Shown here piece by piece: positions 3,471 through 11,873 of a stretch of DNA of 64,000 nt. The notes beneath the pieces were generated by a model, which worked only from the letters and a program-made list of their open reading frames with translations, searched no databases and was not told the origin of the DNA. The stretch's first letter is position 1, and every line of letters starts with the position of its first letter. The position numbers were made by a program, and so were the translations under genes. Source of the stretch: Terriglobales bacterium (GTDB lineage Bacteria > Acidobacteriota > Terriglobia > Terriglobales > Acidobacteriaceae); NCBI GenBank assembly GCA_035764005.1, contig DASTZZ010000005.1, forward strand, positions 1 through 64,000. Direction: 5' to 3'.

Positions 3471-3688
3471 GCCTTCGAAGTACGAATTAGTACAACCAGA
3501 GCTTACTTGGTTTCGCTTGCGGGACGATTGTGAGTCCGTCCGATGACGTTCGGCGCCGCAGAACAGTTTTTGATGGCTCAAGAATTTGCAGCAGTTGAAG
3601 GCCGCAGATAAACTGAACCCCCCAAATTGCTGCTAATGGCGGCTCGCAGCGAAAAAAAATGAACAGCGTCGTCAACTGGAGGTGAGGA

Positions 3689-4822
3689 ATGGGTGTGCTC
3701 CTGGGTAATGCGTGGCGGGCAGCCGTGCTTGGAGTCGTTTTCTCCCTTGCCGTCCTGCCATCCATCGCCAGTGGTCAGGCTCCGAAGCGATCGACCGGGC
3801 ACGTTCCGGTTGTCGAGGATCTAATCCAGCTACTCCAGGCGCGACCAGATTTGCGAGCGGCGCTCGAGGGCGCAATTCGGACCGCTGACCTAAAAGGGTT
3901 CGAGAACACGGAAGCGCTTCTCGATCAACTGGACGATATGATCGCCACCGTCCCCAACGCGGAGCAGCACCGTCCGCCTCGGGAACTCGATCTTTACTAC
4001 ATTGTCGATCACGCACCGGAAGATCGGCTGAACCGTGACGCGAGTTTCATCGCCTGGATGAAGAAGTATCTGGAAGCGCGGGGCCAGTTTATGGACACGC
4101 CCGCGTCGGCTGCGAAAATCTCCTCCTACAAGGTTCTTGCCGGTTGGCGCCTTGATGACTACATCGCCGACCCAAGCGGCTGGATGACTTTCAACCAGTT
4201 CTTCGCTCGTGAAGTGAAGCCAGGCAAGCGGCCGATCGCTGAACCTTACAACGAAAAGGTGATCGTGTCGCCAGCCGACTCGGTTTTCGAGGGTGCGTGG
4301 GACATCGATGCGAACTCGAAGGTCACAGTCAAGGGCGTTACGTGGCCGATAGCGAAGCTCCTGGAGGGCAGCCCATACCAGGATGCGTTTGCAAACGGTA
4401 TCTACACCCACAGTTTCCTGAATGCCAATGACTATCATCGCTATCACGTACCGGTCGCCGGTGAGATCAAGGAGGTCCGCAAGATCCAGGGCCGGGTCTA
4501 CATGGACATGATCAGGAAGCCGGACGGCAGTCTCCAGGCCGTCGATGGCGATACCTACCAGTACAACCAGGAACGCGGTCTGATCGTCATCGATTCACCC
4601 GAAGTGGGCTTGGTCGCCGTGCTACCGATCGGCATGGGGCCCATTTCTTCGGTCAACCTCACACCCGAGGTTGGCGCCAGGCTGCAAAAAGGCGACGAGT
4701 TCGGCTACTTCATGTTCGGCGGTTCTGACATGGTGATGCTGTTCCAGAATAAGAAAGTCGTGATCAACGCCGAGGTTGGGAAGAAGTACCTGCAAGGGCA
4801 GCGCATCGGAGAGGTCCACTAA
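3689..4822 (+). CDS. Exported phosphatidylserine-decarboxylase-like protein
   Basis: A pyruvoyl-decarboxylase fold protein of 377 residues with a cleavable-looking signal peptide (AAVLGVVFSLAVLPSIASG), preceded by a good ribosome site (GGAGGTGAGG). PSD landmarks occur in order: FNQFFAREVKPGKRPI, SPADSVFEGAW with the catalytic-type Asp, the NDYHRYHVP histidines, and a C-terminal FGGSDMVMLF where true PSDs have the self-cleaving LGST or GSS; the Ser that would become pyruvoyl is kept but is followed by Asp. The N-terminal 130 residues resemble the extra domain of fungal PSD-like and PsiD-type decarboxylases. Classical bacterial PSD acts on the inner membrane without a signal peptide, so the substrate may not be phosphatidylserine. 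Isolated gene, no pss neighbour. Confidence 0.8.
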   Translation: MGVLLGNAWRAAVLGVVFSLAVLPSIASGQAPKRSTGHVPVVEDLIQLLQARPDLRAALEGAIRTADLKGFENTEALLDQLDDMIATVPNAEQHRPPRELDLYYIVDHAPEDRLNRDASFIAWMKKYLEARGQFMDTPASAAKISSYKVLAGWRLDDYIADPSGWMTFNQFFAREVKPGKRPIAEPYNEKVIVSPADSVFEGAWDIDANSKVTVKGVTWPIAKLLEGSPYQDAFANGIYTHSFLNANDYHRYHVPVAGEIKEVRKIQGRVYMDMIRKPDGSLQAVDGDTYQYNQERGLIVIDSPEVGLVAVLPIGMGPISSVNLTPEVGARLQKGDEFGYFMFGGSDMVMLFQNKKVVINAEVGKKYLQGQRIGEVH

Positions 4823-5592: not shown

Positions 5593-8067
5593 ATGGGGGG
5601 ATTTACGCAGGACCTACGCTATGCGCTGCGTCAGATGCGCAAGAGCCCGGGATTTGCGACGATCGCCATGGTTACGCTTGCGTTGGGAATCGGCGCAAGC
5701 ACAGCGATGTTCGGCGTGTTGAATGCAGTACTGCTTCGTCCCATTCCATTCGCTGATCCTGACAGTTTGGTAAGAATCTTTTCCACGCAGCGCGGGACCA
5801 TTTTTGGTCCGTCGCCGATGGATCTGCGCGACTTTGCTGCTCAAAACCACACATTCGAAAAGATGGCTGTCTACGATGTGTGGAGAAAGAACGTCAGCTT
5901 CAGCGGTGGGTCGACGGAACCTGAACAAATGCGTGTGGGACTGGTTCCCGGCCAATATTTCGAAGTGCTCGGCATCAAGCCTCTGATGGGCCGGATCTTT
6001 AAAGATGAAGAGAACCGTTGGGGAAACAACTTCGTAGCCATCATCAGCTACGACTTCTGGCAGACGCGTTTTCACGGTGACCGCGCGGTCCTTGGCAAAA
6101 CGATCCGAATCAACGACGAGCCGTACCGCATTATTGGCGTAACGCCGGGTGAAATTCCCGACTACTGGGTTGGGACACCACCTGGCAAAACCGAGCTCTG
6201 GACGCCGTTTGTACCTTACGTGAATGGCAACAATACGGTTTGGAAAGAAAGCGCGCGAGGTGACCGTGGCTGGGGCGCGATCGGCCGTCTGAAACCTGGC
6301 GTAAGCATTCAGCAGGCGAACGCTGATCTGAACAGAATCGCAAGCAGTCTGGCTGCGCAATATCCGCTTGATCATGATGTTGGAGTAAAGCTGCAGCCGT
6401 TGCAGGAAGACCAGGTCCGGAACTTGCGTCCCATGCTGCGAGTTCTGATGGGTGCGGTTCTGCTAATCCTTCTTATTGCCTGCTCCAACGTCGCCAATCT
6501 GCTGTTAGCGAGAAATTCCGGGCGCACTCGAGAGATCGCTTTGCGGGCCGCCATGGGAGCAAAACAGCAGGCCCTCATTCGGCAATTCATGGTCGAGAAT
6601 TTGACTCTCGGATTGCTGGGCGGAGCGCTCGGCTGCGCGCTCGCCTGGTGGGGCTGTGCGATTGTGAGCCGAATTCATCCAGCGCAGCTTCCGCAGCTTG
6701 CGGGCGTGAGCATTGATTTTCGCGTCCTCGCGTTTGCTTTCTTCATATCCCTGTTCAGCTGCCTGATCTTCGGCATTGTGCCCGCTTTGGCCAATCTGAA
6801 AGTGAGTCCGGCGGAAAGTCTTAAAGAAGCCGGCCGCACCAGCACTACGAGCAGAGGGCGCAAGCGTTTAGGGCGTCTGTTTGTAGCGAGCGAGATTGCA
6901 TTCGCAGTGATGCTGCTGATCGCCACTGGACTCTTGATTCAGAGCCTCGTTCGATTGCAGAACCAAAACACCGGCTTCCGTCCCGATCATCTGTTACGAA
7001 CGCATTTGTATCTTCCATTTGTGCGCTATCCCAATACGGGAAGTATTACGCGATTCTGCGACGAATACGCCTCGCGCGTGCGCCAACTGCCGGGCGTGAA
7101 GGATGTGACCGTAAGCGCTGCGAGTCCGCCCGACGATCAATGGAAGCAAAACTTCACCATTGATGGCCAGCCTGTGTCGCGGCTCGAGGACACTCCTATC
7201 GCCGCGCGCAACGCCACGGATTCTAATTATCTGCGTACGCTCGGAATTCCCGTGATCGAGGGTCGTGATTTTTCGGAGTTCGATACGGAAACCAGTCCCG
7301 CTGTGGCTTTGGTAAATCAGGCGTTCGTGAAGAAGTATTTTCCTGGCGAAGATCCCCTTGGCAAACGATTGCGCATCAGTGTGGCGCAGCAGTTAGGGGT
7401 AGGACATACTGCCGACGAGGTTTTCACCATTGTCGGCGTGGTAGGAAATACGATGAACCGTGGTCCGGCGCTTCCGCCCATGCCGCACTTCACCACTCTG
7501 TTTCGGCAGACGCCCGATCTGAATGTCGGCTTCAAAACGTTGATCGTGCGCACGGCTCTTGATCCCATGCAGTTGGCGCCATCGATCCGGCAGCAGCTTC
7601 ATTCACTCGATCCCAACTTGCCGTTCGCGGAAGTCGCAACTGTGGATGAGCTGATTCTCGAGCAAACGGCCGATCGACGCTATACCACGGGCCTGCTCGC
7701 GCTGTTCGCAGCGTTAGGATTGCTGCTCGCTGGAATTGGCGTGTACGGAGTGGTGTCCTACGTAGTTGCGCAACGGACCGGCGAGATCGGCTTGCGCATG
7801 GCGCTAGGCGCGCAACGCGGGGACGTCCTCTGGCTAGTGGTCCGACAGGGAATTGGCATGGCCACAGCAGGTGCTGCAGCGGGGCTTTTTGGCGCTTGGG
7901 CGTTCCGAAAAGCGGTTGCGCAACTTGTGTTCGGCATTTCACCCGCGGACCCGATCACTTTTTTTGCCGCAGCAGCTCTTCTGGTTGGTCTCGCGGCCTT
8001 CGCATGTCTAGCGCCTGCGCGAAGGGCGATGAAAGTCGATCCTATTGTCGCATTGCGTTACGAATAG
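5593..8067 (+). CDS. ADOP-family ABC permease (MacB core plus FtsX domains)
   Basis: An 824-residue membrane protein of the acidobacterial duplicated-orphaned-permease type. It begins with the RYALRQMRKSPGFATIAMV signature, then a first MacB-like periplasmic core (about residues 50-260), an FtsX block with three membrane segments (about 285-420), a second periplasmic core (about 470-680) and a terminal FtsX block (about 710-815) carrying TGEIGLRMALGA and ending ALRYE. It would work with a separate MacB-type ATPase, none of which is in this window. Substrate unknown; relatives are linked to lipoprotein or peptide export. A similar gene lies at 9408-11873 on the opposite strand. Confidence 0.93.
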   Translation: MGGFTQDLRYALRQMRKSPGFATIAMVTLALGIGASTAMFGVLNAVLLRPIPFADPDSLVRIFSTQRGTIFGPSPMDLRDFAAQNHTFEKMAVYDVWRKNVSFSGGSTEPEQMRVGLVPGQYFEVLGIKPLMGRIFKDEENRWGNNFVAIISYDFWQTRFHGDRAVLGKTIRINDEPYRIIGVTPGEIPDYWVGTPPGKTELWTPFVPYVNGNNTVWKESARGDRGWGAIGRLKPGVSIQQANADLNRIASSLAAQYPLDHDVGVKLQPLQEDQVRNLRPMLRVLMGAVLLILLIACSNVANLLLARNSGRTREIALRAAMGAKQQALIRQFMVENLTLGLLGGALGCALAWWGCAIVSRIHPAQLPQLAGVSIDFRVLAFAFFISLFSCLIFGIVPALANLKVSPAESLKEAGRTSTTSRGRKRLGRLFVASEIAFAVMLLIATGLLIQSLVRLQNQNTGFRPDHLLRTHLYLPFVRYPNTGSITRFCDEYASRVRQLPGVKDVTVSAASPPDDQWKQNFTIDGQPVSRLEDTPIAARNATDSNYLRTLGIPVIEGRDFSEFDTETSPAVALVNQAFVKKYFPGEDPLGKRLRISVAQQLGVGHTADEVFTIVGVVGNTMNRGPALPPMPHFTTLFRQTPDLNVGFKTLIVRTALDPMQLAPSIRQQLHSLDPNLPFAEVATVDELILEQTADRRYTTGLLALFAALGLLLAGIGVYGVVSYVVAQRTGEIGLRMALGAQRGDVLWLVVRQGIGMATAGAAAGLFGAWAFRKAVAQLVFGISPADPITFFAAAALLVGLAAFACLAPARRAMKVDPIVALRYE

Positions 8068-9407: not shown

Positions 9408-11873
9408 CTACTCGGCCCGCAGCGCTTGCGTCGGCTCAATCGATGCCGCTCTGCGGGCTGGTATGAATGCGGCTAACATTCCTACTGTTATCAGTACCGC
9501 CGACACGCTGATGTACGTGGCCGCATCCATCGGTGAGACTCCATACAGAAAACTCTTCAGTGATTGTTGCGCGGCGAGCGAAGCGAGCAGGCCGACTCCG
9601 AGGCCGATTCCGATCAGGGCCAGTCCTCGCTGCAGCATCATGCGCAGGATGAGCGCGCGATCCGCGCCTAATGCCATGCGGATTCCGATCTCGCGCCGAC
9701 GCTGTCCAACAATTTGCGACAGCACGCCATACAGTCCGGCCAGCACCATCATTATGGCAATCCCTGCAAACGCTGCGACCAAATACAATCCAAGGCGCTG
9801 GTTGAAGTCGGCTTCCTCATGGGCGCCTTCCAGCGTCTTTACTTCCTCGAGCGCAAACTCAGGAGCGGCTTCGTGGAAAAGACTGCGCACTGCCGGCGCG
9901 ATCTCCACATTGCCGTGCGTACGCACAACGTAGTTGGTTTCAGGCGCGACCAGAAAGCCGTAGAAAAATCCCGTAATGGGAATTTGCGAATACGGTAGAT
10001 CGATCTCGGGCAGAATCGCCGGCCCCAGCTTGGTTTGGACCATGTCGGCTGTTACGCCGACGATGGTGTACGGCTTGATCATGCCTGTATCTTTTCCGCC
10101 CAAATCAAGTTGCTTTCCCAGAGGATTCTCATTTCCAAAGTAGCGTCGCGCGAGAGTCTCGTTTATGAGTGCAACGTATGGGCTGCTCGCGCTGTCATCG
10201 GTGCTGATCGAGCGTCCGCGAATTACGGGAACCCTCATTACCTGTGTGAATCCCGCACTGATAGCCCGCACAAAGGCGTGACCCTTTTCCGTCTGCTCCT
10301 CCGGCCGCCCGACGATGTGAATCGAGGTGTTCATGTCGATTCCTTGGAACGGCACCGAATTTGTGTACGCAGCCGATTCCACTCCCGGCAAATTCTGAAT
10401 CTTCTCGAGGAGCGGTTCATAAACGCGCAACGCGATTGAGTTTGCCTGGTCGGCTTGTGCCGACGATTTCGTCGCTCCTGTGAAGAAGCCGGCGGCGTTT
10501 CCTGGCATCGCTAGAAACTGCGTGACATTCGATTCATCGAAGCCGAGATACATGTGCTGCAGTTTGTAGAGCGTGCGGAACATTAGTCCGCTGGAGATCA
10601 GCAACACCACCGACAACGCGACTTCACCGCCGACCATGGCCGCACTCAAACGCGAGCGCTTCGGACCGCTGCTCGTTCCGCGCGATCCTTCCTGCAGTAC
10701 GGTCTGCGGGTCGGTACGAGTTGCGATCCACGCAGGCACGATCGACGACAGCAGAGTCACAATGGCTGCCACAACCAGCAGAGCCACGAAGATGGTTGCG
10801 CGAATGTGAATCTCCTGCGAGCGCGGAATCAAATCGGGAGGCAGCCGGTGGACACCCATCAGCATGAAATGCGCGAGAGCGAGGCCGGCAGCAGCTCCGA
10901 AGGCGCAGAGCACTCCGCCTTCGGTCAACATTTGCGCGAAGAGAGCGCGGCGGCTCGCGCCCAGAGCTGTGCGCACCGCCAGTTCCTGACTGCGTGCAAG
11001 GCAGCGCGCGAGCAGCAGATTGGAGACGTTGGCGCACGCAATGAGCAACACGAGAATGAGCGCTCCAGTAAGGGCGAGAAACACCGGCTTTATCTGCGCG
11101 GTAACCAGGTTCCGTAATGGGATTAACTGGAGTCGCAGGTCCTTGGCTTCCTTCGGATATTTCTGCTGGATGCCGCGTGAGATAGCCGTGAGCTCCGCCT
11201 GCGCAGCGTCCGTACTCACTGCCGGCTTCATTTTTCCCAAGACATCAAGGAAGGTCGATCCGCGCTCTTTCATCGCGTCCGGCGGCGGCTGGTACGCGAT
11301 CCAGATGCCCTTGGAAACATCGCTTTCGCGGAAATTGAAGCCATCAGGGAGAACCCCGACGATCGTGTACGGTTCATCACCTACTTTGAGTTGCTGTCCA
11401 ACAGCATGCGGATCCGCGGCGAAATGCTCACGCCAGAAAGGCGCACTGAGAATCACAACATTCGGAGCGCCAGGCTGATTGTCTCCCGGAACGAAGCCTC
11501 GCCCAAGCATCGGGTTGACGCCAAGTACGTCAAAGATGTTCGCTGTCGCATGGATGGCAAAGACTCCCTCGCTGCTCTCGGAGCTGCGCGCCACCACGAA
11601 GTCCGGCAGATAGCCTGCGACAGCGGAAAACTGGCGTGCCTGCTCGCGAACATCGATGAAATTCGGCCAGGATGTGGCCTCGTGGTCCACAGGTCGGATG
11701 GCCACAATGCGATCCGCATCGCGATAAGGTAGGGGCCGCAGCAGGACACTGTCGATCACGGTAAACATGGCCGTGTTCGCGCCGATTCCGAGTGCCAGCG
11801 TGAGTACCGCAAGGGCGGCGAATCCGGGATTCTTGGCGATCTGCCGCAGAGCGAAACGAAGACTTTGAGCCAA
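9408..11873 (-). CDS. ADOP-family ABC permease (second copy)
   Basis: An 821-residue relative of the 5593-8067 protein with the same order: N-terminal FALRQIAKNPGFAALAVLTL, periplasmic core, FtsX block, second core, and a terminal FtsX block with REIGIRMALGADRALI and the end ARRAASIEPTQALRAE. The start is TTG at 11873 with AGGAG about seven bases upstream. The two proteins clearly differ in sequence, so this is not a recent duplication. It needs an unlinked ATPase; cargo unknown. Confidence 0.93.
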   Translation of the reverse strand: MAQSLRFALRQIAKNPGFAALAVLTLALGIGANTAMFTVIDSVLLRPLPYRDADRIVAIRPVDHEATSWPNFIDVREQARQFSAVAGYLPDFVVARSSESSEGVFAIHATANIFDVLGVNPMLGRGFVPGDNQPGAPNVVILSAPFWREHFAADPHAVGQQLKVGDEPYTIVGVLPDGFNFRESDVSKGIWIAYQPPPDAMKERGSTFLDVLGKMKPAVSTDAAQAELTAISRGIQQKYPKEAKDLRLQLIPLRNLVTAQIKPVFLALTGALILVLLIACANVSNLLLARCLARSQELAVRTALGASRRALFAQMLTEGGVLCAFGAAAGLALAHFMLMGVHRLPPDLIPRSQEIHIRATIFVALLVVAAIVTLLSSIVPAWIATRTDPQTVLQEGSRGTSSGPKRSRLSAAMVGGEVALSVVLLISSGLMFRTLYKLQHMYLGFDESNVTQFLAMPGNAAGFFTGATKSSAQADQANSIALRVYEPLLEKIQNLPGVESAAYTNSVPFQGIDMNTSIHIVGRPEEQTEKGHAFVRAISAGFTQVMRVPVIRGRSISTDDSASSPYVALINETLARRYFGNENPLGKQLDLGGKDTGMIKPYTIVGVTADMVQTKLGPAILPEIDLPYSQIPITGFFYGFLVAPETNYVVRTHGNVEIAPAVRSLFHEAAPEFALEEVKTLEGAHEEADFNQRLGLYLVAAFAGIAIMMVLAGLYGVLSQIVGQRRREIGIRMALGADRALILRMMLQRGLALIGIGLGVGLLASLAAQQSLKSFLYGVSPMDAATYISVSAVLITVGMLAAFIPARRAASIEPTQALRAE

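Follow-up and report, generated by a model that had tools for sequence, protein, structure and literature searches.

The DNA analyzed here (the window) is a 64,000-nucleotide stretch of a Terriglobales genome of 5.1 Mb in 131 contigs, and it carries an intact ORF that starts at ATG and encodes a 377-residue protein with an unusual FGGSD motif (Table 1). A match to Pfam family PF02666 across residues 168 to 374 (E 1.8e-49; 168.5 bits against a Pfam gathering score of 22) is too strong to be due to chance, and in the predicted structure the roughly 130 residues that separate a hydrophobic N-terminal stretch from this core fold into a helical domain. The only further PF02666 gene of the host genome is of a short type, with a 216-codon frame and FGSR at the motif, and we take it to encode the housekeeping enzyme.

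Table 1. Features of the FGGSD gene and its product, in window coordinates.
Feature	Position	Strand	Basis
CDS, exported-type FGGSD PF02666 protein, 377 aa	3689..4822	+	ORF and Pfam match
GGAGG, likely ribosome-binding site, 6 nt before ATG	3678..3682	+	Read directly
Predicted signal peptide, about residues 1-29, putative cleavage site	3689..3775	+	Hydropathy; N-termini of sub-clade
N-terminal helical domain, residues 36-160, PsiD-type homologue	3794..4168	+	hhalign; model alignment
PF02666 pyruvoyl decarboxylase core, residues 168-374	4190..4810	+	Pfam match
Asp197, equivalent of E. coli PSD Asp90	4277..4279	+	35/35 rows
His241, family-specific, two positions before the Tyr137 equivalent	4409..4411	+	35/35 rows
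His250, equivalent of E. coli His144 (cleavage and decarboxylation)	4436..4438	+	35/35 rows; role from PMC7952604
His253, equivalent of E. coli His147	4445..4447	+	35/35 rows
FGGSD motif, residues 343-347; predicted cut Gly345/Ser346	4715..4729	+	Conservation; ends of PsiD beta chains
Predicted alpha chain, 32 residues, about 3.66 kDa (computed), Ser346 becoming pyruvoyl	4724..4819	+	Predicted from motif

The surroundings of the gene give no clue to a substrate, with an SRAP gene upstream and a glyoxalase gene downstream on the other strand. A conserved neighborhood was likewise rejected as a substrate clue, as no cluster of neighbors is common to the clade of the window protein apart from chance-like pairs; among 105 flanking ORFs from 33 sources (picked mechanically, some of them spurious) no Pfam family occurs in more than three. 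The host genome has 13 matches to the permease family PF13520, which were uninformative. Farther along the window, ORFs of 824 aa (5593-8067, + strand) and 821 aa (9408-11873, - strand) fall in one similarity cluster with an ORF at locus L026, and are presumably MacB/FtsX-like permeases by sequence type.

Relatives were collected by searching genome contigs with a two-sequence profile (the window protein and one relative of 43% identity), which yielded 35 loci. Two were left out of the family alignment (A3): L046, a short match with the motif region outside the frame, and L039 (940-2096), where an FGGSD gene is split part-way between two frames by mutation or assembly error. The 35 rows of A3 are the window protein and 34 proteins from 33 loci, because one locus (L017:3079-5341, from a Bacteroidetes metagenome-assembled genome, or MAG) holds a tandem pair of FGGSD genes, each encoding an N-terminus of export type; start codons of the rows were picked by eye, and L008 and L028 are the same protein from apparently the same genome. 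By record title, the FGGSD family is thinly spread over at least eight phyla, mostly as MAGs, so that some contigs may be misbinned; the titles include Acidobacteriota, Pseudomonadota, Myxococcota, Bacteroidota, Planctomycetota, Gemmatimonadota, Actinomycetota, Omnitrophota, Bipolaricaulota, and Aminicenantes. The relatives closest to the window protein come from two Acidobacteria MAGs, one of which has two copies, giving three proteins at 70-72% identity; two Woeseiaceae proteins follow at 58 and 60%. Five genomes of the same genus contained no FGGSD relative at E 1e-10, and only five of 396 genomes from the phylum match at E 1e-30, namely the window's own, G438 (also FGGSD), and three with other motif types. 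The gene is patchily distributed and may have been transferred. A scan of viral contigs for spread by phages confirmed no relative, and 56 plasmid records match, none of them at 60% identity or above.

An earlier note on this DNA had described the self-cleavage motif as FGGSD standing in place of LGST. The motif is indeed present, but the description as LGST with letters changed does not stand: this is the one-residue-longer FGGS form, in which the Asp alone is special. The beta chains of PsiD, the Psilocybe L-tryptophan decarboxylase, stop at FGG in PDB entries (8zia_I, 8x4q_A) whereas that of E. coli phosphatidylserine decarboxylase (PSD) stops at LG, and seven bacterial PsiD-like proteins have GGST or GGSS at the motif. 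FGGST also occurs in two long PSDs, from Aureibacter and Fusobacterium, which group with PSDs in our trees, so the first letters of the motif are not decisive by themselves. Judged by these comparisons, FGG/S is no degenerate or decayed LGST and its sole oddity is the Asp after the Ser, a residue at the +1 position for which the structures examined offer no precedent. Both S346 and D347 are invariant in A3 (35/35), as are D197, H250, and H253, with G345 in 34 rows and D248 in 30; E. coli equivalents were counted from the DYHRVH stretch of the PDB alignment, E. coli PSD itself being outside the row alignment. The window protein therefore keeps all of the self-cleavage Asp, His, and Ser residues of the PF02666 superfamily, and the retention of the Ser claimed previously extends to every aligned family member. 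In a study of the E. coli enzyme, autocleavage is assigned to D90/D142-H144-S254 and carboxylate recognition to H144, and the T255A variant is described as uncut at 4 h and about 70% cut in purified form (PMC7952604). A variant that is slow yet largely cleaved suggests that, in E. coli PSD, the residue at this position modulates cleavage without being decisive for it.

The extra N-terminal domain proposed by the earlier note proved to be homologous to that of PsiD, and helical in the AlphaFold2 model (pLDDT 84.3, pTM 0.78; residues 1-10 and 14-30 below 50). Family residues 36-160 align with the N-termini of seven PsiD-like proteins by hhalign at 97.6% probability (E 2.9e-12), against at most 0.6%, and no E better than 0.09, in 20 column-shuffled controls. 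The window protein is not hit by Pfam model PF12588, even with the threshold relaxed to E 1; three of the six rows of alignment A2 are. In the predicted model, residues 36-344 superpose on PsiD with a Z of 24.6 over 303 residues. Next come an Aspergillus oryzae protein at Z 23.0 and E. coli PSD, whose best Z is 17.8 across 205 residues, and each of the 18 Foldseek matches at E of 0.001 or below is a chain from one of the three. Below these decarboxylases, at Z of 12.3 or less, rank domains of the sugar-permease IIA and M23 peptidase types, which were rejected as kin, the similarity being taken as a common barrel arrangement of the core.

The named relatives differ in how much they share with the window protein. 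PsiD (PDB 8x4q, 8zia) is its best PDB match by sequence as well as by fold, with the same two-domain layout and FGG/S, although identity is only about 20%, the position of His241 is Gln, and the PsiD substrate is known. The A. oryzae protein, which is PsiD-like and named an arginine decarboxylase by PDB title only (9jer, 9jf5), has the same fold and domain layout at about 21% identity, but its chain sequence stops at GGS rather than GG. E. coli Psd (7cnw, 6l06) shares the core, the DYHRxH stretch, and the Asp, His, and Ser residues, but has LGST, amphipathic N-terminal helices, and phosphate contacts at Tyr137 and Ser166 (PMC7952604). Bacterial proteins that combine PF12588 and PF02666 (Burkholderia, Enterobacter, Plesiomonas), annotated as phosphatidylserine decarboxylase family proteins, form a sister clade with a homologous N-terminal domain, yet carry GGST or GGSS and not GGSD, and are about 26-31% identical to the window protein; five of the seven bacterial PsiD-like rows have Glu at the Asp197 position and none has a strongly hydrophobic N-terminus. 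Among the open-access literature matches listed, no paper dealt with the FGGSD family or with the Aspergillus arginine decarboxylase, most subscription papers lying outside the scope of that search.

Two trees, a quick one with 56 rows and a careful one with 49 (three near-duplicates and four long-branch rows having been dropped), agree with each other; both were built without fungal PsiD. In the careful tree, 32 FGGSD rows form one clade (support 99/97) and the seven PsiD-like rows another (100/98), and the two are sisters, so that the window protein falls beside rather than inside the bacterial PsiD-like clade. A branch with support of 100/99 separates both from the long PSDs, though the program warns that long branches meet at this root split, and the window protein sits within a sub-clade of 11 rows (98/93). 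Clustering with standard Psd, which the earlier note had named as evidence against its reading, was found in neither tree. All eight NCBIfam models that hit the protein describe PSD or archaetidylserine decarboxylase, and all score below their cut-offs (for example, 92.6 against 111.75 bits for TIGR00163 and 126.3 against 371 for NF001941). Assignment to standard Psd was thus rejected on the trees, the NCBIfam cut-offs, and the motif. Outside the FGGSD clade, an export-type relative on a long branch (L011:1226-2476, - strand) has YGGSL at the motif and Tyr-His-His in place of Tyr-His-Arg, and is possibly a further exported type.

The signal peptide claimed previously is supported at the level of sequence, where the N-terminus is of export type, with a 13-residue hydrophobic stretch from residue 11 (mean hydropathy 2.71) preceded by one Arg, and looks like a Sec signal. 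By hydropathy and motifs, all 11 rows of the sub-clade have export-type N-termini, 10 of them with a strongly hydrophobic stretch (2.58-3.33) and L019 with 1.73. We take L045 to carry a lipobox, L017b a borderline one, and L019 a twin-arginine motif. Outside the sub-clade, only two of 24 rows (L032 and L044) are of export type, 22 of the 24 being judgeable given that L031 is without its N-terminus and the start of L036 is cut by a contig end. This distribution fits a single gain of export in the window sub-clade, as far as N-terminal sequences can indicate. The L044 protein (536-1996; Aminicenantes) also has a long insertion inside the core.

The nature of the substrate can be approached through positions that contact phosphate in E. 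coli PSD, which are reported as Y137 and S166, with the Y137F/S166A double mutant substantially less active (PMC7952604). In the FGGSD family, the Tyr137 position is Phe in 25 of 35 rows and Tyr in one, and the Ser166 position is Leu or Met in all 35. Taken singly, these positions do not cleanly indicate the substrate, because other rows also vary there: the 11 long PSDs have Tyr (10) or Arg (1) at the first and Pro (6), Ser (4), or Asn (1) at the second, and the seven PsiD-like rows have Phe (4) or Tyr (3) and Ser (6) or Leu (1). Five residues (A173, S228, H241, Q294, and D347) occur in every family row and are not among the top three letters at those positions in the PSD or PsiD-like rows; position 241 is His in 35/35 FGGSD rows, Gln in 7/7 PsiD-like rows, Thr in 11/11 long PSDs, and Ile in both FGGST PSDs. 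Together with the PsiD-type architecture, the altered phosphate-contact positions make a non-phospholipid substrate likely, in line with the non-lipid one suggested by the earlier note.

A further PF02666 match is present in 28 of the 31 FGGSD-holding genomes searched (the genome of L040 being outside this count), so the FGGSD gene looks mostly like an addition to, and not a replacement of, phosphatidylethanolamine synthesis. The exceptions are G450, G463, and G474; the best counter-example is G450, a 1.1-Mb record titled chromosome, in which FGGSD could therefore be the only PSD-like enzyme.

Based on sequence, domain homology, model fold, conservation, clade membership, and export-type N-termini, we propose, with a probability of roughly 60%, that the window gene encodes an exported, self-cleaving, PsiD-like pyruvoyl decarboxylase of an amino-acid-like substrate. 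The proenzyme would cross the inner membrane and, once folded, cut itself between Gly345 and Ser346 through Asp197/Asp248-His250-Ser346, yielding a beta chain of about 35 kDa and the 32-residue alpha chain starting with pyruvoyl. A small amino-acid-like substrate would then be joined through its amino group to the pyruvoyl group as a Schiff base, with His250 engaging its carboxylate, and CO2 and a primary amine would be freed outside the cytoplasm, with an amine signal, acid consumption, or nitrogen use as candidate benefits. Since the cofactor would be made from the protein's own chain, no supply of pyridoxal phosphate would be needed outside the cytoplasm.

An exported lipid enzyme, which at the periplasmic face of the membrane would decarboxylate phosphatidylserine, lyso-PS, or some other lipid with a serine head, is the strongest competitor to this proposal, though we consider it unlikely. 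It would account for the core shared with PSD and the identity of the NCBIfam hits, export would bring the protein beside membranes, the lipobox of L045 and the borderline one of L017b would fit it, and the three of 31 genomes without another PF02666 gene are in its favor. Set against these are scores under all eight NCBIfam cut-offs, a position outside the PSD clade, a PsiD-type domain occupying the region of the E. coli PSD amphipathic helices, and the changed phosphate-contact positions. Less probable still is that the N-terminal stretch is an uncleaved anchor holding the enzyme at the inner membrane with its chemistry unchanged; the stretch is clearly hydrophobic and visual inspection shows no strong signal-peptidase site, but the export-type N-termini of clade relatives differ in kind (lipobox, twin-arginine) and are a better fit to an outside location. 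Equally improbable is a non-enzymatic or barely maturing pseudoenzyme with its fold kept for binding, in line with the dead enzyme that the earlier note had allowed for, because, although Asp replaces a Thr whose loss slows cleavage in E. coli PSD (PMC7952604), Ser346, His250, His253, and Asp197 are found in 35/35 rows, PsiD beta chains stop at the same FGG, and dN/dS between the window gene and five relatives is 0.18-0.23 (dS 0.87-1.63, the highest near saturation), a ratio of about 0.2 that makes a dead enzyme unlikely.

Clues to function come from relatives without export-type N-termini, in Enterobacter (about 31% identity) and Corallococcus (41-44%). On an Enterobacter cancerogenus plasmid typed as conjugative (L083:941-3741), a PsiD-like gene with FGGST, labeled as a phosphatidylserine decarboxylase family protein, begins 29 nt downstream of a gene annotated as a basic amino acid/polyamine antiporter. 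In Corallococcus (L020:6845-9107), an ORF with both channel Pfams (3.7e-13 and 3.1e-12) lies upstream of the FGGSD gene on the same strand, with 10 nt, including AGGAG, between the channel stop and the decarboxylase ATG; near PDB relatives of the channel ORF include the pentameric channel ELIC. The same ORF coordinates recur at L021 (6845-9107), where the genome's channel match adjoins the FGGSD gene. A search at E 1e-40 of 145 genomes from the order to which the L021 genome belongs detected the FGGSD gene in four, all of them with the channel gene adjacent, and in the phylum PF02931 matches 6 of 195 genomes, of which the four strong matches are the same genomes with the adjacent pair and the two weak ones (7.0e-5 and 9.6e-4) are without it. 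The four decarboxylases are 91-100% identical to that of L020, and therefore represent one inherited arrangement and not four events. The genes for the ELIC-like pentameric ligand-gated channel and the cytosolic-type FGGSD decarboxylase of Corallococcus likely form an operon. Of the 32 genomes with an FGGSD gene, the other 30, including that of the window, gave no match to the channel, and six Acidobacteriota channel loci showed no such decarboxylase gene within about 1.5 kb. Work on ELIC reports that this channel is activated by primary amines and that a putative amino acid decarboxylase gene lies beside its own (PMC3119659).

Here, we describe a window gene that, by sequence, is a member of a bacterial family that is scattered and uncharacterised and has the magic-mushroom tryptophan decarboxylase as a relative, and for which, as for other FGGSD-type genes, the label "phosphatidylserine decarboxylase" is probably wrong. 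As a rule, amino acids are decarboxylated in the cytoplasm, and most of the enzymes involved depend on pyridoxal phosphate. We tentatively suggest a broader scheme, which we hold to be possible rather than probable, in which the FGGSD proteins make up a hitherto unrecognised family, namely pyruvoyl decarboxylases of amino acids with a specificity of their own (His241, Gln294, Asp347), the window clade is an extracytoplasmic, amine-making branch with a self-made cofactor, and the Corallococcus proteins are a cytosolic branch, co-transcribed with an ELIC-like channel, that makes the natural ligand of the channel or removes its precursor. If this is true, the Corallococcus pairing would extend the published pairing of ELIC and a decarboxylase to a second decarboxylase class, and an exported decarboxylase with its own cofactor would represent a novel way of making amines outside the membrane. 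The pairing in Corallococcus also makes the natural ligands of bacterial pentameric channels testable through the amine of the neighboring decarboxylase.
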